The notes beneath the pieces are model-generated. The model did not search any database. It was not told the origin of the DNA and saw only the letters and a list, made by a program, of their open reading frames with translations. From Candidatus Komeilibacteria bacterium CG11_big_fil_rev_8_21_14_0_20_36_20 (lineage in GTDB: Bacteria > Patescibacteriota > Patescibacteriia > UBA1558 > GWA2-36-10): a DNA stretch of 54,850 nucleotides. The DNA is taken from assembly GCA_002787405.1 (NCBI GenBank), contig PCWQ01000014.1, forward strand, positions 1-54,850, given 5' to 3'. Position numbers and translations under genes: made by a program. Position 1 is the stretch's first letter. Each line of letters opens with the position of its first letter. This document shows, piece after piece, positions 5,059-12,396 of this stretch.

Positions 5059-5141
5059 ATCCCGTTAGAAATTCCCGAATTTTAGCGGGTGCATAAATTA
5101 AATTTTATTTAATTAGTTGTTACTATAATTTCTAACGGGAT
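5059..5141. repeat. Palindromic element copy 1, 15-bp perfect terminal inverted repeat ATCCCGTTAGAAATT
   Basis: ATCCCGTTAGAAATT 5059-5073 and reverse complement AATTTCTAACGGGAT 5127-5141; second copy at 31971-32040. Confidence 0.8.
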
Positions 5142-6750
5142 GAAACAAACAAAATTTATTTTTATAACTGGAGGAGTTTGTTCCGGCTTGGGCAAAGGAA
5201 TTGCTTCAGCATCAGTCGGAGCGATTTTAAGGGCCTCTGGTTATTCTGTTTTTACTTTAAAATTAGATCCTTATTTAAATGTTGATCCGGGAACCATGAG
5301 CCCTTATCAGCACGGCGAAGTTTATGTTACTGATGACGGAGCAGAAACTGATTTAGATTTAGGTCATTATGAAAGATTTATTGACACTAATTTATCAGAA
5401 TTGTCTAATTTAACCACCGGGCAGATTTATGAAAAAGTTTTAAAAGGTGAGCGTGCTGGGCATTATTTAGGAAAAACAATTCAAATTATTCCTCATATTA
5501 CTGATGAAATTAAAAATTATATTAAAAAGGCGGCGGTTGAAAGTAAAGCGGATTTTTTATTGTTAGAATTAGGAGGTACGGTTGGTGATATTGAAGGCGA
5601 ACCATATCTGGAAGCAGCTCGTCAGTTCCAACGGGAAGTTGGCCGAGAAAATGTGATGTTGATTCATTTGACTTTATTGCCGTTCCTGAAGGCATCCAGC
5701 GAATTAAAAACCAAACCCACACAAGCGTCAGTCAGGGAGTTATACCGCCGTGGTTTGCAGCCGGATATTATTTTAGCTCGTAGTGATAAAAAATTAACCA
5801 AAGAAGTAATTAGTAAAATTGCTCTCTTTGCCGATGTCAAGGAAGAGGCGGTGATTCCGGCCCAGACCGTCAAAACTATCTATGAAGTTCCTTTGTCTTT
5901 TGAGAAAAAGTATAAAATTTCCAGAATTATTTTTAATCGTTTGAATTTGCCGACCAGAAAACCAAAACTTGATGAATGGGAGAAGTTTATTAAGAAAATT
6001 AAAAGTACTAAGAAAAAATTGTCTATTGCCTTAGTTGGCAAATACAATGAAAATATTGACGCTTATATTAGTGTGGTGGAAGCCATTAAGTCAGCTTGTT
6101 ATCACAATAATGTTGATTTAAATTTGGTTTGGGTTAGTTCAATTAAATTGGAGAAGAAAGATAAAGCAGAGTTAAGAAAATTAGATAAAGTTGCTGGTAT
6201 TGTCGTGCCGGGTGGTTTTGGCTATCGGGGTATTGAAGGTAAAATTATGGCCGCTAAATATGCCCGCGAGCATAAGAAGCCATATCTGGGCTTATGTTTG
6301 GGTATGCAAGTGGCTACAATTGAATTTACCAGGCATGTGTTAAATACTAAAGATGTCAATTCTACTGAATTTGATCCCAAGACTGCTAATCCGGTTATTC
6401 ATATCTTGCCGGGGCATACTGCAGATGAAGATAAGGGTGGTACTTTAAGATTAGGCGCCTATCCTTGTGTCTTGGATAAAAATTCCCTTAGCTACAAAGC
6501 ATATGGGCAGCCCAAAATAGAGGAAAGACACCGCCATCGCTATGAATTTAATATGGATTATTATCAGCCATTGGAAGAAGCAGGCATGCGTTTTGCCGGA
6601 CTTTCACCGAATAAAAAATTAGTGGAAATCATTGAATTAAGAGACCATCCGTTTTTTGTCGCTTCTCAATTTCATCCGGAATTCAAATCTCGGCCACTTA
6701 GACCCCATCCATTATTTAGAGATTTTATTAAAGCCAGTTTGAAAGTTTAG
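5140..6750 (+). CDS. pyrG: CTP synthase
   Basis: FITGGVCSGLGKGIASAS start, glutaminase GLCLGMQ, full length 536 aa. Confidence 0.98.
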   Translation: MKQTKFIFITGGVCSGLGKGIASASVGAILRASGYSVFTLKLDPYLNVDPGTMSPYQHGEVYVTDDGAETDLDLGHYERFIDTNLSELSNLTTGQIYEKVLKGERAGHYLGKTIQIIPHITDEIKNYIKKAAVESKADFLLLELGGTVGDIEGEPYLEAARQFQREVGRENVMLIHLTLLPFLKASSELKTKPTQASVRELYRRGLQPDIILARSDKKLTKEVISKIALFADVKEEAVIPAQTVKTIYEVPLSFEKKYKISRIIFNRLNLPTRKPKLDEWEKFIKKIKSTKKKLSIALVGKYNENIDAYISVVEAIKSACYHNNVDLNLVWVSSIKLEKKDKAELRKLDKVAGIVVPGGFGYRGIEGKIMAAKYAREHKKPYLGLCLGMQVATIEFTRHVLNTKDVNSTEFDPKTANPVIHILPGHTADEDKGGTLRLGAYPCVLDKNSLSYKAYGQPKIEERHRHRYEFNMDYYQPLEEAGMRFAGLSPNKKLVEIIELRDHPFFVASQFHPEFKSRPLRPHPLFRDFIKASLKV

Positions 6751-6759
6751 AGATAATAA

Positions 6760-6787
6760 AATAACCCCTTTTCTAAAGGGGTATTTA
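6760..6787 (+). terminator. pyrG terminator
   Basis: ACCCCTTttctaAAGGGGT followed by T-rich tract. Confidence 0.65.
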
Positions 6788-6987
6788 TTTTTAATAAAAA
6801 TAAAAAGGGATCAGCCGAAGCCAATCCCTATGGGTGCCTGCATATTTTATGGAGGCAGTATTATAAGGCTCGGTGTCTTATTTACAGACACCATTTGCTT
6901 GGGTAGAGGGGGGCTGGAACTACCCGAAGCGGGGAGGCATTTGTGTAAGAGCACCGAACCATTTTAATTTAATCAAAGGACTGTTAC
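6780..6987 (-). ncRNA. Structured non-coding RNA, family not recognised
   Basis: Minus-strand promoter (TTGACA at 7017-7022, TAAGAT at 6994-6999, 17-nt spacer), multi-branch structure (GGTTCG/CGAGCC, GCTT-C-GGGTAG/CTACCCAAGC, GGTGTC/GACACC) and terminator AGGGATTGGCTTCGGCTGATCCCTTTTT; no ORF. Confidence 0.75.
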
Positions 6988-7135
6988 TTGAGTATCTTAT
7001 ATTATTTTTAAATAGATGTCAACCACTTTAGAGGATTTACCTCTAACGGAGTCAGGTTTTTAAAAACTTGCTTCTAATAAATTTTAATAATATAATCTAG
7101 TTGAAAATAAAAGTACTTTACAAAGGAGATAGAAA

Positions 7136-8548
7136 GTGAAAAAAACACTAATGTTTGTTGTCCTCTTCGGCCTCTTAATTACTAATTTAAGTTGGGCTGA
7201 TTGGCCAATGTTTCAGAGAGATACTCGACATACTGGTCGGGCCAATATTATAGCCGCTCAAACCAATAATCTGAAATGGCAGCTTGATTTAGGAGTGAAT
7301 ATTTCACCCTATGGCGGACCTAGTGTGGGCCTGTATAATGGTTCTCGACGCATTGTGGTAGGAACTGATGATGGCGTTTACGTCATTGATACTAGTGGTT
7401 TTATTTTTGAGCATATTTCTACCGGTTTCCCTGTAGAGACAGTGGTGGCTATTTACAATAATACTCTTTACTTCGGAGCTGGTGATACTCTCTATGCTTA
7501 TCAGCCAAGTGGGCTATATTGGAGTCAACCCTTAGACGATAATGATCTTACTCATGTCACTATTCAGGGTGACACAATTTATGTCTGCGACGAAGATCGG
7601 CTCTGGTCGTTTAGCTTAAGTGGCGATTTTTACTGGATGAGTGACAACTTGAGCGGCAATATCATCTATGCCGCTCCAGCTGTAGACCAAGAAGGTAATG
7701 TTTATGTGGTTAGTAGTCAGGCCCTTTGGGACGACTATGTGCTCTATGCTTATCGTTCAAACGGCAATTTATGGTGGTCTTATGACTACCTTGCCTTTGA
7801 AGGAAATGGAGTGCAGATGACGCCTACTCTTGATAGAGAAGGTAATGTTTATCTGGCTACCTATTGGTCCAGTTTTTGGCCCAGTAGCATCCAGTCACTC
7901 AAAGATGGCGATCGCAATTGGAAACATAGTGCAGAAGCGTTGCATTCCTCGCCAGCTTATCATAACGGGGTGATCTATTACGGCACCACTGAAGGACTAG
8001 AAGCGCGTTCTTCTGACGGAACTCTACTTTGGGCCTATTATACGCCGAGCGCTGTTAAATATTCCTCACCGGCTATTGGTAGAGATGGAACTATTTATAT
8101 TGGCACTGAAGGAGGTAGATTTTTAGCCATTACTAATAGCGGCGGTGCTAAATGGAGTTCAGATGTTTTGCAGTCGGCTGCTAGTTCACCAGCGATTGAT
8201 GAAAATGGCGTGGTTTATGTGGCGGCCGGACAATCTTTATTTGCCTTTGCCGATTCTACAACCGATTTGCCACCTGACAATAGTAATCTAGCTGCTCCCA
8301 CTCATATTTTTATTTATCCCAATCCTTTTAATTCATCTGCTAAGATCAGTTATTATCTTACTGAAGCAGGATGGGTAAAAATAGACTTATATGATATTAG
8401 GGGGAGTCACATCAAAGCTTTAGCTAACCAGCCACAAGACAAAGGTCAACATCAGGTTTCTTTATCCGGTTTAAGTAGCGGGATTTACTTTGTTCGTTTC
8501 AAGACTAATAATTATTCGCATACCAAGCGGGCAACAGTGATTAAGTGA
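7136..8548 (+). CDS. Secreted PQQ-like beta-propeller protein with T9SS type A-like C-terminal sorting domain
   Basis: GTG start after AAAGGAGAT; signal peptide; WPMFQRDTRHTGR; PQQ-like repeats; C-terminus IYPNPFNSSAKISYYLTEAGWVKIDLYDIRGSHIKAL..GIYFVRFKTN. Confidence 0.88.
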   Translation: MKKTLMFVVLFGLLITNLSWADWPMFQRDTRHTGRANIIAAQTNNLKWQLDLGVNISPYGGPSVGLYNGSRRIVVGTDDGVYVIDTSGFIFEHISTGFPVETVVAIYNNTLYFGAGDTLYAYQPSGLYWSQPLDDNDLTHVTIQGDTIYVCDEDRLWSFSLSGDFYWMSDNLSGNIIYAAPAVDQEGNVYVVSSQALWDDYVLYAYRSNGNLWWSYDYLAFEGNGVQMTPTLDREGNVYLATYWSSFWPSSIQSLKDGDRNWKHSAEALHSSPAYHNGVIYYGTTEGLEARSSDGTLLWAYYTPSAVKYSSPAIGRDGTIYIGTEGGRFLAITNSGGAKWSSDVLQSAASSPAIDENGVVYVAAGQSLFAFADSTTDLPPDNSNLAAPTHIFIYPNPFNSSAKISYYLTEAGWVKIDLYDIRGSHIKALANQPQDKGQHQVSLSGLSSGIYFVRFKTNNYSHTKRATVIK

Positions 8549-8553
8549 TTGTC

Positions 8554-8609
8554 AAAAAACACCCTTTAACTTTTCGAGCTAAAATTCGATTTGCTGAGGG
8601 TGTTTTTTA
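8554..8609 (+). terminator. Terminator with extended structured loop (copy A)
   Basis: AAAAAACACCC/GGGTGTTTTTT stem; loop similar to 10408-10462. Confidence 0.8.
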
Positions 8610-8629
8610 TTTAAATAATTTTTAAATTA

Positions 8630-8658
8630 TTGACATTTTATTAGAAAAATATTATGAT
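8630..8658 (+). promoter_or_regulatory. Promoter of tRNA-Gln(TTG)
   Basis: TTGACA - 17 nt - TATGAT, 22 nt upstream of tRNA. Confidence 0.7.
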
Positions 8659-8680
8659 TAGTCGCGTATTATATTTATAT

Positions 8681-8754
8681 TCGGGGATCGTCTAATGGTA
8701 GGACACCTGGTTTTGGTCCAGGCAATCGGGGTTCGAGCCCCTGTCCCCGAGCCA
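8681..8754 (+). tRNA. tRNA-Gln (anticodon TTG), CCA encoded
   Basis: Complete cloverleaf: TCGGGGA/TCCCCGA acceptor, CCTGG-TTTTGGT-CCAGG anticodon arm, GGTTCGAGC T-arm, GCCA end. Confidence 0.96.
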
Positions 8755-8821
8755 CGCATAGCGTGGCGGAGGGGTTTGCACCCAGACGAAGCCCAAAGGG
8801 CGGAGTCGGGTCCCCGAGCCA
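8743..8821 (+). repeat. 12-bp direct repeat of the tRNA-Gln 3' end (GTCCCCGAGCCA) bracketing a 55-bp GC-rich insert
   Basis: GTCCCCGAGCCA at 8743-8754 and 8810-8821. Confidence 0.85.
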
Positions 8822-8850
8822 ATGAATTTTATTATATTTATTAGTTCTAA

Positions 8851-8878
8851 AAATTTGCTTTGGATGAAGCATTTTTTT
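8851..8878 (+). terminator. Terminator downstream of tRNA-Gln
   Basis: TGCTTtggatgAAGCA followed by TTTTTT. Confidence 0.65.
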
Positions 8879-8882
8879 GATC

Positions 8883-8911
8883 TTGACATTTTATTGATAA
8901 TATGCTTAAAT
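8883..8911 (+). promoter_or_regulatory. Promoter of the SPFH-like gene pair
   Basis: TTGACA - 17 nt - TTAAAT. Confidence 0.55.
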
Positions 8912-8981
8912 GGAGCATTAATTTACATAACTTTTGTAAACGTACCTATAAATAAACATCCTAATTAAAGGAGACATTGTA

Positions 8982-9494
8982 ATGATAGACCTGAAAAAAT
9001 GGCCGATTGTACTAGCCGTAATCATAATCCTGCTGTTTGTAGGCTTGATTATTTTTCATGCAGCTTTTGTCTCGTTTGTAGACAATTACGAACTGGGATT
9101 AGTCTACAATCGATTCAGTGGTGAAATTACGCCATTGGAGCGCACAGGATACTTTATCTTTCCGCCTTTTAAGTACTCAGTACACTCGATTGATTTGCGA
9201 CCATATCAATTATCTATTACCGCCAGTTTTGGAAATGAATTTTCTTCGCGCGGCGGTTCCGGTATTCCTTCCCGTGTCTTAAATGCTAAATTGGTAAGGT
9301 TTAACCCCGAGGGACTGGAAACCTTTGTGGAATGGCACGGACGCGATGCTGGTGACGATCTTGGTAATCTCAAAGAAATCATGAAGTGTTATGCCTTTGA
9401 CAAGGAAGGCGGGAAAGATTGTCCATTCATCATTGTCTTGAGCGAGATAAATCCGAGCCAAAGCCCCGATGATACGGAAACGGATGGAGAATAA
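8982..9494 (+). CDS. Single-TM protein with short SPFH/band-7-like domain (paralog 1)
   Basis: AAAGGAG RBS; N-terminal TM; VDNYELGLVYNRFSGEITPLERTGYFIFPPFKYSVHSIDLRPYQL resembles SPFH N-terminus. Confidence 0.65.
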   Translation: MIDLKKWPIVLAVIIILLFVGLIIFHAAFVSFVDNYELGLVYNRFSGEITPLERTGYFIFPPFKYSVHSIDLRPYQLSITASFGNEFSSRGGSGIPSRVLNAKLVRFNPEGLETFVEWHGRDAGDDLGNLKEIMKCYAFDKEGGKDCPFIIVLSEINPSQSPDDTETDGE

Positions 9495-9946
9495 TGAAAA
9501 GCAAAAATAAATGGTTAGTTGGGATTTCCACTACTATTTTTGCTATACTTCTCCTGTCTTATTTTATCTTCCTCAATTACACAGAACCTACCGAGATTGG
9601 AATTGCCAGGAATATTTTTACTGGTAAAATGTGGATGCAGGAAGGCGGAGGATGGCACAGAACAGCACCATGGGTCTTAGTAGCAAAGATAGATACCCGA
9701 CCAATGCGGGTAGCCATAACTACTGCTGGGCATGGCTTTAATGCCAGACTAGTTCAGTTTAATTGCAAAGAATGGAGAAGTTTTGTAGAAACTGAAGGGT
9801 TTCGCTACTGGTGGTGGACAAATCGTATTTCCTACAACTTTGGTTATGACGAAGAATACCGAGGTATGAAGGACATAATGAGAGGGTATGCTTTTGCTAC
9901 AAAAGAATATCCTTTCATAAAAATTCTCGAGCAATATACACAATAA
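9494..9946 (+). CDS. Single-TM protein with short SPFH/band-7-like domain (paralog 2)
   Basis: Translationally coupled (TAATG); N-terminal TM; TEIGIARNIFTGKMWMQEGGGWHRTAPWVLVAKIDTRPMRV; shares ARLVQF/AKLVRF and FVE motifs with the upstream ORF. Confidence 0.65.
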   Translation: MKSKNKWLVGISTTIFAILLLSYFIFLNYTEPTEIGIARNIFTGKMWMQEGGGWHRTAPWVLVAKIDTRPMRVAITTAGHGFNARLVQFNCKEWRSFVETEGFRYWWWTNRISYNFGYDEEYRGMKDIMRGYAFATKEYPFIKILEQYTQ

Positions 9947-9952
9947 TGTGTT

Positions 9953-9998
9953 AAATGGCGTATTAATTCTCACAGGGGAAGATACGCCATTTTGTTTT
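9953..9998 (+). terminator. Terminator
   Basis: AAATGGCGTAT...ATACGCCATTT then GTTTTTC. Confidence 0.75.
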
Positions 9999-10049
9999 TC
10001 TATTTTTTATTTTATGTTATAATAGATCTGATTTATAAAAAAATTATCT

Positions 10050-10400
10050 ATGAAGAAAGCAAAGTATTTATTTTTAGTATTATTACTTCTGCCGGGAACG
10101 GCTTTAGCCCAAACTGATCCTTTTGGGTTAAATGAGTTAAGCGAGACAGAATTAGGAACTAAGGATTTGAATGATACCATTGCCGGGGTCATTAATATCG
10201 TTTTGGGTTTTTTGGGCATCCTAGCTATACTCGGCATTATCTACGGCGGTTTTAAAATGATGACCTCCGGAGGTAACAGTCAAGACACTGACGCTGGTAA
10301 ACAGGCAGTGGTGGCCGGAGCGATTGGCTTACTGATAGTTTTTGCCGCTTATGCCATTTCCCGATTTGTCCTTAATTCTCTAGTTAACGAAACAATATAA
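10050..10400 (+). CDS. TrbC/VirB2-like pilin protein
   Basis: Signal peptide ending ALA, two hydrophobic helices with GGFKMMTSGGNSQDTDAGKQAV between them. Confidence 0.75.
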   Translation: MKKAKYLFLVLLLLPGTALAQTDPFGLNELSETELGTKDLNDTIAGVINIVLGFLGILAILGIIYGGFKMMTSGGNSQDTDAGKQAVVAGAIGLLIVFAAYAISRFVLNSLVNETI

Positions 10401-10407
10401 ACAAAGC

Positions 10408-10462
10408 AAAAAACCACCTTGTAACTTTTTGAATTTAGCTCAATTAGCTTAAGGTGGTTTTT
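10408..10462 (+). terminator. Terminator with extended structured loop (copy B)
   Basis: AAAAACCACCTT/AAGGTGGTTTTT; loop resembles copy A. Confidence 0.8.
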
Positions 10463-10475
10463 AGGATAAATTTTT

Positions 10476-10649
10476 CTAAGACTGTTTTTTTAACTTTTTT
10501 TCTTTCCTCTTCTTTGCGGCTGCTATTTTAGCTGTAGTAACGGCCTGATTGATTATCTCCTCGGGGTAATATTGAAAGATTGTAGTTAGGATATCGGTAA
10601 GATATTCAACGTTCTCTTCAGGCGGAATTTTTTTATCTTGACCATTCAT
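10476..10649 (-). CDS. Small Lys-rich hypothetical protein (57 aa, below the ORF-track cut-off)
   Basis: Uninterrupted ORF MNGQDKKIPPEENVEYLTDILTTIFQYYPEEIINQAVTTAKIAAAKKRKEKKLKKQS. Confidence 0.5.
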   Translation of the reverse strand: MNGQDKKIPPEENVEYLTDILTTIFQYYPEEIINQAVTTAKIAAAKKRKEKKLKKQS

Positions 10650-10794
10650 AGGTTGCTTCCTAGGGTTGATTTAATTTGAGTTTACAAAATATTATTTTAA
10701 TTTAGGAGTTTTAATAAGTTTTGTCAAGTTTATTTTTGATTGAAAAAATCTTGAATTTATGGTATTTTTAATTCATCTAATTTAGCAATAAAAT

Positions 10795-12396
10795 ATGAAG
10801 ATTTCAGAGGAAATTGTACTGTTGTATAAAAAACTGGATCGGATTTACCACAGGAGAGAATTAATCAGCCAGGAAGAAAACAAGATAGAAGTTGAGGACA
10901 TTACCAGTCACTTGGCTTCTCTTTACGAAAAATTAAGGAATAGTATTGATTTTAAAGATGCACATCTGTTACGTCGTTTTGCTATTGAAAGAAACCTAAA
11001 GCGGCGTTTTATTTTAGAAATGCTTAAGCCGCAAATAGCTAAGAGTTTACTGGAGGAATTAATTCGGGCTCATTATTTGCCGAATAATTCTGTGCCGGAG
11101 AGTTATATTAAACAAGTTGAAAAAATCATTGAAAAATATAATGATTTTTTTCTCTTGATGAATGACATGTACCACGGCGACGATATTAAGGATTATTTTG
11201 AATGGTTGATCGGTATTGAGGCCTGCGAAATTGATATGCTTCTACAGCCGGAAGATATTGAGGATGCAGTCATTGAGGCCATGTATCAGGTAACCAAGAC
11301 TCGCATCAAACTTAAAGGTGACGAGATAAATATTGAGGAAAAAAACATTCAGCTTTACATTGCTATTCACAAGTCTTTGGTTAAATCTGATGATACAATT
11401 ATTTCTTATCATTTATTGAATCTATATTTTAATAACTGGCTTAAAGCTGATGATCGTTTAATTAAGTTAATGGCTAGCAAGTTGCCGGCTATTTACAATA
11501 CTATTCAGTATCATCTTAGGCACCCCTACCAAAGAAAAATCTTGCAGTCCATTAAGGAGCCGGTGGTGACCTTTCAAATTTTATATGAATTGATTTTGAG
11601 CAAAGGCCAGGATATTGAGAGTTTACTAGTGGATCCTGAATCGTTGGAATCAGAAGCAAAATTGTTAATTAACCAGAAGTATAAAAAAATTCGCGGACGT
11701 ATTCGCCGGAGTTCATTGCGGGCTATTATATATATCTTTGTTACTAAAGTTCTTTTAGCTTTAATTTTGGAATTTCCTTATGAGGTTTATATAATTAAAC
11801 ATATTAATTATTTTAATTTAGGCATTAATGTTGTTTTTCCTCCTTTACTTATGTTTTTGATTACACTGACCATTGTGCCGCCGAATAAGGAAAATACAAA
11901 ACTTATTTTGGAAAATTTGCATAATTTAGTTTATAATCGTCCCTCCCAATCAATTCTCTGCAAATTAAGCACTAAATTTCGCAAGAGTTTAAGGGCTCAC
12001 ATGTTTTATTATTTTATGTACACACTCCTATACGTCGCTGTCTTTGGTCTAATTATTTACATGTTGCGTCGGCTGGAGTTTAATATTTTGAGTGGTGGTC
12101 TATTTTTATTCTTCTTATCAGCTGTCAGTTTTTTTGCCATAAAAATACGCTCTACAGCCAAAGAGTTGATGGTTTTGAAAAGAAAAGAAAGCATTATTTC
12201 ATTCTTTATGAACTTTTTTTCTTTACCTATTTTAGCCGTTGGTCGTTGGATGTCAGTTAGATTTAAAAAGATAAATATTTTCGCTTTTGTTATGGATTTT
12301 ATTATTGAAGCTCCCTTTAAAATGTTTATTTCCGCTTTTGAAGACTGGTTAGGTTTTATGAAAGAAAAGAAAGAGGAGATTTATCACGAGAAATAA
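10795..12396 (+). CDS. Large hypothetical membrane protein (helical N-domain, C-terminal TM helices)
   Basis: 533-aa ORF, several hydrophobic segments in C-terminal half. Confidence 0.8.
   Translation: MKISEEIVLLYKKLDRIYHRRELISQEENKIEVEDITSHLASLYEKLRNSIDFKDAHLLRRFAIERNLKRRFILEMLKPQIAKSLLEELIRAHYLPNNSVPESYIKQVEKIIEKYNDFFLLMNDMYHGDDIKDYFEWLIGIEACEIDMLLQPEDIEDAVIEAMYQVTKTRIKLKGDEINIEEKNIQLYIAIHKSLVKSDDTIISYHLLNLYFNNWLKADDRLIKLMASKLPAIYNTIQYHLRHPYQRKILQSIKEPVVTFQILYELILSKGQDIESLLVDPESLESEAKLLINQKYKKIRGRIRRSSLRAIIYIFVTKVLLALILEFPYEVYIIKHINYFNLGINVVFPPLLMFLITLTIVPPNKENTKLILENLHNLVYNRPSQSILCKLSTKFRKSLRAHMFYYFMYTLLYVAVFGLIIYMLRRLEFNILSGGLFLFFLSAVSFFAIKIRSTAKELMVLKRKESIISFFMNFFSLPILAVGRWMSVRFKKINIFAFVMDFIIEAPFKMFISAFEDWLGFMKEKKEEIYHEK

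Follow-up and report, generated by a model that had tools for sequence, protein, structure and literature searches.

An order of Patescibacteria very probably holds a genuine, resident and lineage-wide set of secreted proteins that carry a type A C-terminal sorting domain (CTD) in genomes without a detectable T9SS. In existing descriptions, type A CTDs are the signals of a machine that only outer-membrane bacteria possess, and no paper in the one literature collection searched discussed them in Patescibacteria. One such protein is encoded in the stretch of DNA analysed here (the window; 54,850 nucleotides), which is contig C7 of G000, a genome of 977,836 bp that is 97.4% complete. The T4SS pilin and DUF4012 proteins encoded in the window, together with the small genomes of the phylum sample, appear to fit Patescibacteria (CPR).

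The window protein and its C-terminal domain

The first-pass annotation described the open reading frame at 7136-8548 as a propeller protein ending in a type A sorting domain (Table 1). Its coordinates, GTG start, stop and protein were all exact, and both parts of the description held. The CTD matched PF18962 (50.8 bits, E = 2e-13, cut-off 27; 54.6 bits in the genome search) and TIGR04183 (46.5 bits, E = 3e-12, cut-off 23) far over the curated cut-offs, and the repeats 5' of it matched PF13360 at more than twice its cut-off. PF13570 gave 60.7 bits, which is below its own cut-off. Neither FlgD_ig (PF13860) nor the type B domain (CHU_C) matched the protein at E ≤ 1. Propeller repeats are also found in BamB, but TIGR03300 scored 36.8 bits against a cut-off of 285, and no Omp85 match accompanies the protein here.

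Table 1. Features of the window around the CTD gene
Feature	Position	Strand	Basis or remark
pyrG, left landmark of the variable interval	5140..6750	+	PF06418; conserved position
Shine-Dalgarno AAAGGAG, 7 nt 5' of the GTG start	7122..7128	+	read from the sequence
CTD-tagged secreted PQQ-propeller protein, 470 aa, GTG start	7136..8548	+	ORF; Pfam and NCBIfam matches
Predicted Sec signal peptide MKKTLMFVVLFGLLITNLSWA, probable cleavage after A21, no lipobox cysteine	7136..7198	+	sequence reading; heuristic N-terminal hydrophobic segment
PQQ_2 / beta-propeller repeats, aa 104-360	7445..8215	+	PF13360, 59.8 bits (cut-off 27.6)
Type A C-terminal sorting domain (Por_Secre_tail), residues 393-466	8312..8533	+	PF18962, TIGR04183, predicted seven strands
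Arg465 at the motif-E lysine column (PorV contact in T9SS structures)	8528..8530	+	alignment; PMC10994853
tRNA-Gln, conserved locus landmark	8681..8751	+	Rfam RF00005, 57.1 bits; same interval in most relatives
memb, conserved membrane protein of unknown function, right landmark	10795..12396	+	homologues in 62/91 genomes

When folded alone and without an alignment (AF2), the CTD gave a confident seven-stranded β-sandwich (pLDDT 85); the model of the whole protein was unusable (pLDDT 46). Foldseek with the CTD model returned T9SS CTDs (8glk_D, TMt 0.73) along with many generic Ig-like domains, with no match below E = 0.001, and the fold is therefore consistent with, rather than specific to, T9SS CTDs. 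A PDB search with a profile of 50 CTDs, from the window protein and its relatives, found FlgD first, followed by 8glj_D (E = 1.3e-5) and 8glk_D (E = 1.9e-4), which are CTDs solved within the Flavobacterium T9SS translocon. The FlgD Ig-like domain is a related sandwich, and PF13860 is also matched by 50 of the 79 CTD proteins that we collected, but the PDB FlgD matches stop before the terminal basic motif. The likeness to T9SS type A cargo of Bacteroidota (PF18962/TIGR04183; RgpB, RemA, NucA) takes in the Sec signal peptide, the variable body, the seven-stranded Ig-like CTD at the C-terminus, the YPNPFN, G.Y and basic E motifs, and the match to 8glj_D and 8glk_D.

CTD proteins across the order and the search for their machinery

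CTDs were found in 32 of 91 genomes, G000 included, with up to seven per genome. By rank, they occur in 9/21 genomes of the family and 12/15 of the rest of the order (21/36 for the order as a whole), and in 11/55 of the remaining genomes of the class. In the phylum beyond this class, about 3 of 222 genomes have one (p = 2.5e-18 against the order); the phylum sample held 240 genomes from many families, those listed being 0.6-1.3 Mb in size. An uncultivated lineage has been reported to have multi-copy type A CTD proteins, but it has outer-membrane transport functions, whereas the CPR genomes have no Omp85 match.

The 79 CTD proteins, 67 of them complete, share a common architecture. The CTD lies within 2-12 residues of the C-terminus in all 79, is never internal and has no hydrophobic tail; the last residue is Lys in 71 and Arg in 5. 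By a heuristic, 66 of the 67 complete proteins begin with a signal-peptide-like hydrophobic segment. Between the two ends lie M23 (11 proteins), C25 (4), dockerin, LVIVD, PKD, CBM and PQQ domains. The CTD genes are inherited vertically in several families: a number of body families are common to different genera with the CTD retained, and G023, G026 and G028 have two CTD families in common with conserved neighbours; a CTD M23 gene has the same neighbours in all three. Some homologous M23 proteins in the family lack the CTD, and some homologues end in other β-domains. The genes beside the CTD genes are housekeeping genes only, with no conserved partner among them.

G000 itself has two further CTD genes (G000:C16:106361 and G000:C18:39396). 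One follows dnaN directly on a 148-kb contig (271 aa), and the other is near a GAPDH-like gene on a 70-kb contig (308 aa). The three contigs with CTD genes are 55-148 kb long and carry CPR-type genes around them. A chimeric join was a concern of the first-pass annotation. In favour of a chimeric contig, or of misbinned FCB sequence, some relatives have their CTD genes on contigs of <10 kb. That explanation is strongly disfavoured by these three contigs, by a positional homologue in another genus (G004, below) and by CTD genes in two genomes that each consist of a single contig, G027 (four copies in 947 kb) and G016 (1.04 Mb), for which binning error is excluded.

None of the known machinery was found over cut-off. 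SprA and PorU were missing from all 91 genomes, and PorV, GldM and Omp85 from all 31 CTD-bearing genomes searched. Positive controls worked only for Omp85, which was matched in 7 of 14 control genomes; no T9SS-bearing control genome was included for SprA, PorU or PorV, nothing matched GldM in the controls either, and these four absences rest on curated profiles. The weak PorU matches were mostly fragments of the CTD region and included one C25 domain, in a protein of G033. As this protein also has a C25 propeptide, it looks like gingipain-type cargo. It is encoded on contig 9 (L056:5789-9610) and has 1273 aa, comprising the C25 propeptide, the C25 peptidase, a β-helix and the CTD.

As Omp85 was absent from 31/31 genomes with its controls positive, nothing points to an outer membrane that the proteins would have to cross. 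The earlier proposal of a lineage without T9SS or outer-membrane assembly is supported, in that neither was detected, with control backing for Omp85. The contrast with the type A cargo of Bacteroidota lies in this undetected machinery (SprA, PorV, PorU, GldM and Omp85). For the window protein itself, a Sec-type signal segment was found (by the heuristic), and the SprA/Sov translocon, PorV, PorU and an outer membrane were not. A CTD match alone is no proof of a T9SS in a genome. It is very unlikely that a T9SS has diverged beyond recognition or lies in the 2-3% by which this genome (97.4% complete) falls short: the lack of a T9SS-bearing control for SprA, PorU, PorV and GldM leaves some room for this, but nothing was over cut-off in up to 91 genomes, single-contig ones included, and the control-backed absence of Omp85 weighs against it.

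Locus, composition and translation initiation

The first-pass annotation took the lower AT content of the gene, its strong Shine-Dalgarno (SD) sequence and its GTG start as signs of recent horizontal transfer. The composition was confirmed, with a GC content of 0.427 for 7136-8548 compared to 0.346 ± 0.027, but it is not evidence of transfer. The excess falls mostly on codon positions 1 (0.488) and 2 (0.442), and is due mainly to amino-acid content. GC3 was 0.350 compared to 0.278 ± 0.030, and codon bias was mild (z = -3.5). The class-conserved neighbour memb has the same deviations (GC3 0.352, z = -3.2), which rules out GC as a sign of foreign origin. We also considered memb as a cognate receptor for the CTD and rejected it: it is present in its 62 genomes regardless of CTDs, and is missing from the CTD-rich families f4 and f5.

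The gene order pyrG - tRNA-Gln - memb - rbsK - pduL - ackA - recJ is kept in part or whole across the family, and the CTD gene of the window is placed between pyrG and the remainder of this series. In G004, which belongs to another genus of the same family, the contig starts inside a PQQ and CTD gene, which is followed by tRNA-Gln and memb-rbsK-pduL-ackA-recJ. Its product is 37-44% identical to the window protein (37% over 154 residues), and memb is 70% identical. The gene is absent at this place in four relatives with a complete interval (G009, G011, G016 and G020), and a search for viral relatives found none. The counterpart in G004 is a positional homologue, so transfer was not recent; independent arrival of the two genes at a hot spot is less likely. 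The shared gene order, the G004 homologue with its own CTD, the two further CTD genes of G000 and the recurrence of CTDs through the order all speak against recent transfer.

The SD sequence and GTG start are real, and such a signal is rare in the window: a 7-nt match (AAAGGAG) precedes 3 of 46 open reading frames (at 7136, 8982 and 44112), and most window genes have no SD. It is not peculiar to this gene, however. AAAGGAG precedes all three CTD genes of G000, and across the class an SD match of at least 5 nt was found for 54/67 CTD genes compared to 61/371 neighbouring open reading frames (p = 1e-24), with candidate starts scanned under similar rules in both. Other signal-peptide-like open reading frames had such a match in 20 of 116 cases. 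This sets the CTD genes apart as a class with distinct initiation, which may mean either that they are strongly expressed or that they keep a donor's style.

The pyrG-memb interval (6750-10795 in the window; loci L133 and L139-L157) is variable in the family, from ~0.3 kb and near-empty in G021 to >9 kb in G016. It holds mostly different genes in each genome, including different lipoproteins and secreted proteins. A 12-nt direct repeat, GTCCCCGAGCCA, lies at 8743-8754 and 8810-8821, where the 3' end of tRNA-Gln recurs 67 nt downstream, past a GC-rich stretch; the pattern resembles that left by integration into the 3' end of a tRNA gene. A candidate structured non-coding RNA lies on the minus strand at 6994-6806, in the gap that separates pyrG from the CTD gene. 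It has a promoter-like TTGACA-17-TAAGAT, a GC-rich body of ~185 nt with a fold z-score of -6.4, and an intrinsic terminator at its end; it matched no Rfam family and had no convincing sequence relative among the compared loci.

Selection on the CTD and its possible role

The CTDs are under purifying selection. Only one orthologous pair, G008/G017, had an unsaturated dS (0.52); its dN/dS was 0.36 for the CTD and 0.20 for the body. Two paralogues in G024 with unrelated bodies have CTDs that are 89% identical, with a dN/dS of 0.08, which indicates that the tag was shuffled or homogenised. As the faster-evolving part of the protein, and one that some M23 homologues do without, the CTD is optional. 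CTDs on unrelated bodies were more alike within genomes (0.420) than between them (0.363; 0/2000 permutations), and this likeness persisted at matched GC3. The nearest CTD was in the same genome for 21 of 66, compared to 2.7 expected. In G000 alone the effect was slight (0.39 compared to 0.37).

What might the selection act on? According to the structural study of the T9SS translocon, the conserved CTD residues serve to specify the fold, except for a near-invariant lysine in the C-terminal region; the loops of PorV bind the CTD extracellularly and hydrogen-bond this lysine (PMC10994853). In an earlier review the remaining conserved motifs were regarded as exposed and possibly binding too (PMC10202324), and the two sources thus disagree on the role of the rest of the motif. 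The lysine column, in motif E, was placed by PDB alignment to 8glj and 8glk and not from coordinates; among the 78 CTDs in which it was read, it holds Lys in 66, Arg in 11 and Gln in 1. It stays Lys in the G023, G026 and G028 orthologues at dS of at least 1, while adjoining columns vary. A neutral Lys codon at high or saturated dS would be expected to stay Lys about 7% of the time.

The explanation we tentatively favour is that the window protein is an accessory extracellular protein, probably exported by the Sec pathway, whose tag is kept for a T9SS-independent role. The CTD is a true T9SS type A domain of probable FCB ancestry, which would have entered the order long ago, probably several times; it is now inherited, moved between bodies and maintained by selection. 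We propose that the T9SS translocon is not needed because there is no outer membrane. The tag would most likely act as a terminal docking or retention module: a folded sandwich of seven strands, basic and conserved at its C-terminal edge, that binds a partner on the cell surface or beyond it. We infer such a role from the terminal position, the selection and the conserved basic residue. Against it count the Arg in the window protein, the optional and faster-evolving nature of the CTD, and neighbours that are only housekeeping genes; moreover, repeated uptake from FCB bacteria would also yield genome-specific CTD similarity.

The main rival, passive retention after repeated uptake, is a possible explanation that we hold more doubtful. 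It supposes that genes for FCB-type secreted proteins are taken up continually, and that the CTD persists in these cells without a partner of its own, as an Ig-like end domain with a stabilising effect. The bodies are indeed typical of FCB cargo (gingipain-like C25, M23, PKD, LVIVD, dockerin), and Patescibacteria are reported to have received genes from Bacteroidota and Omnitrophota (PMC12455944). The genes are patchy, and that of the window lies in a variable interval beside tRNA-Gln; the homologues ending in other β-domains fit as well, and the strong SDs, unlike those of neighbours, could be donor relics. However, passive retention does not readily account for a CTD that is always terminal, or for the persistence of a lysine that the fold can dispense with at a dS where neutrality would rarely preserve it. 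In addition, the positional homologue and the orthologue families indicate long residence.

A monoderm-type order in which selection preserves the signal, although no machinery was detected, implies either that the domain has a second receptor or that the receptor of a host is used. The latter would make the CTD a host-directed address: the cell would live as an epibiont on an FCB bacterium, and the CTD proteins that it secretes by Sec would dock on the host's PorV or attachment complex, so that the epibiont decorates or attacks its host via the host's own cargo receptor. We consider this unlikely. The extracellular contact between PorV and the lysine is in its favour, as this column is K/R in 77/78 CTDs here although no PorV was over cut-off, and genome-specific CTD similarity would suit adaptation to one host lineage. 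Against this, PorV would be expected to bind CTDs more loosely outside the translocon (PMC10994853). The M23 and C25 peptidases, propellers and PKD adhesin-like proteins form a concrete extracellular set, with which uncultivated Patescibacteria may affect other cells.

On contig 18 of G000, RHS-core-like proteins are encoded directly downstream of the second CTD gene (L055:7574-8497 and 9745-10452), with CHAP-type ends apparent by eye.
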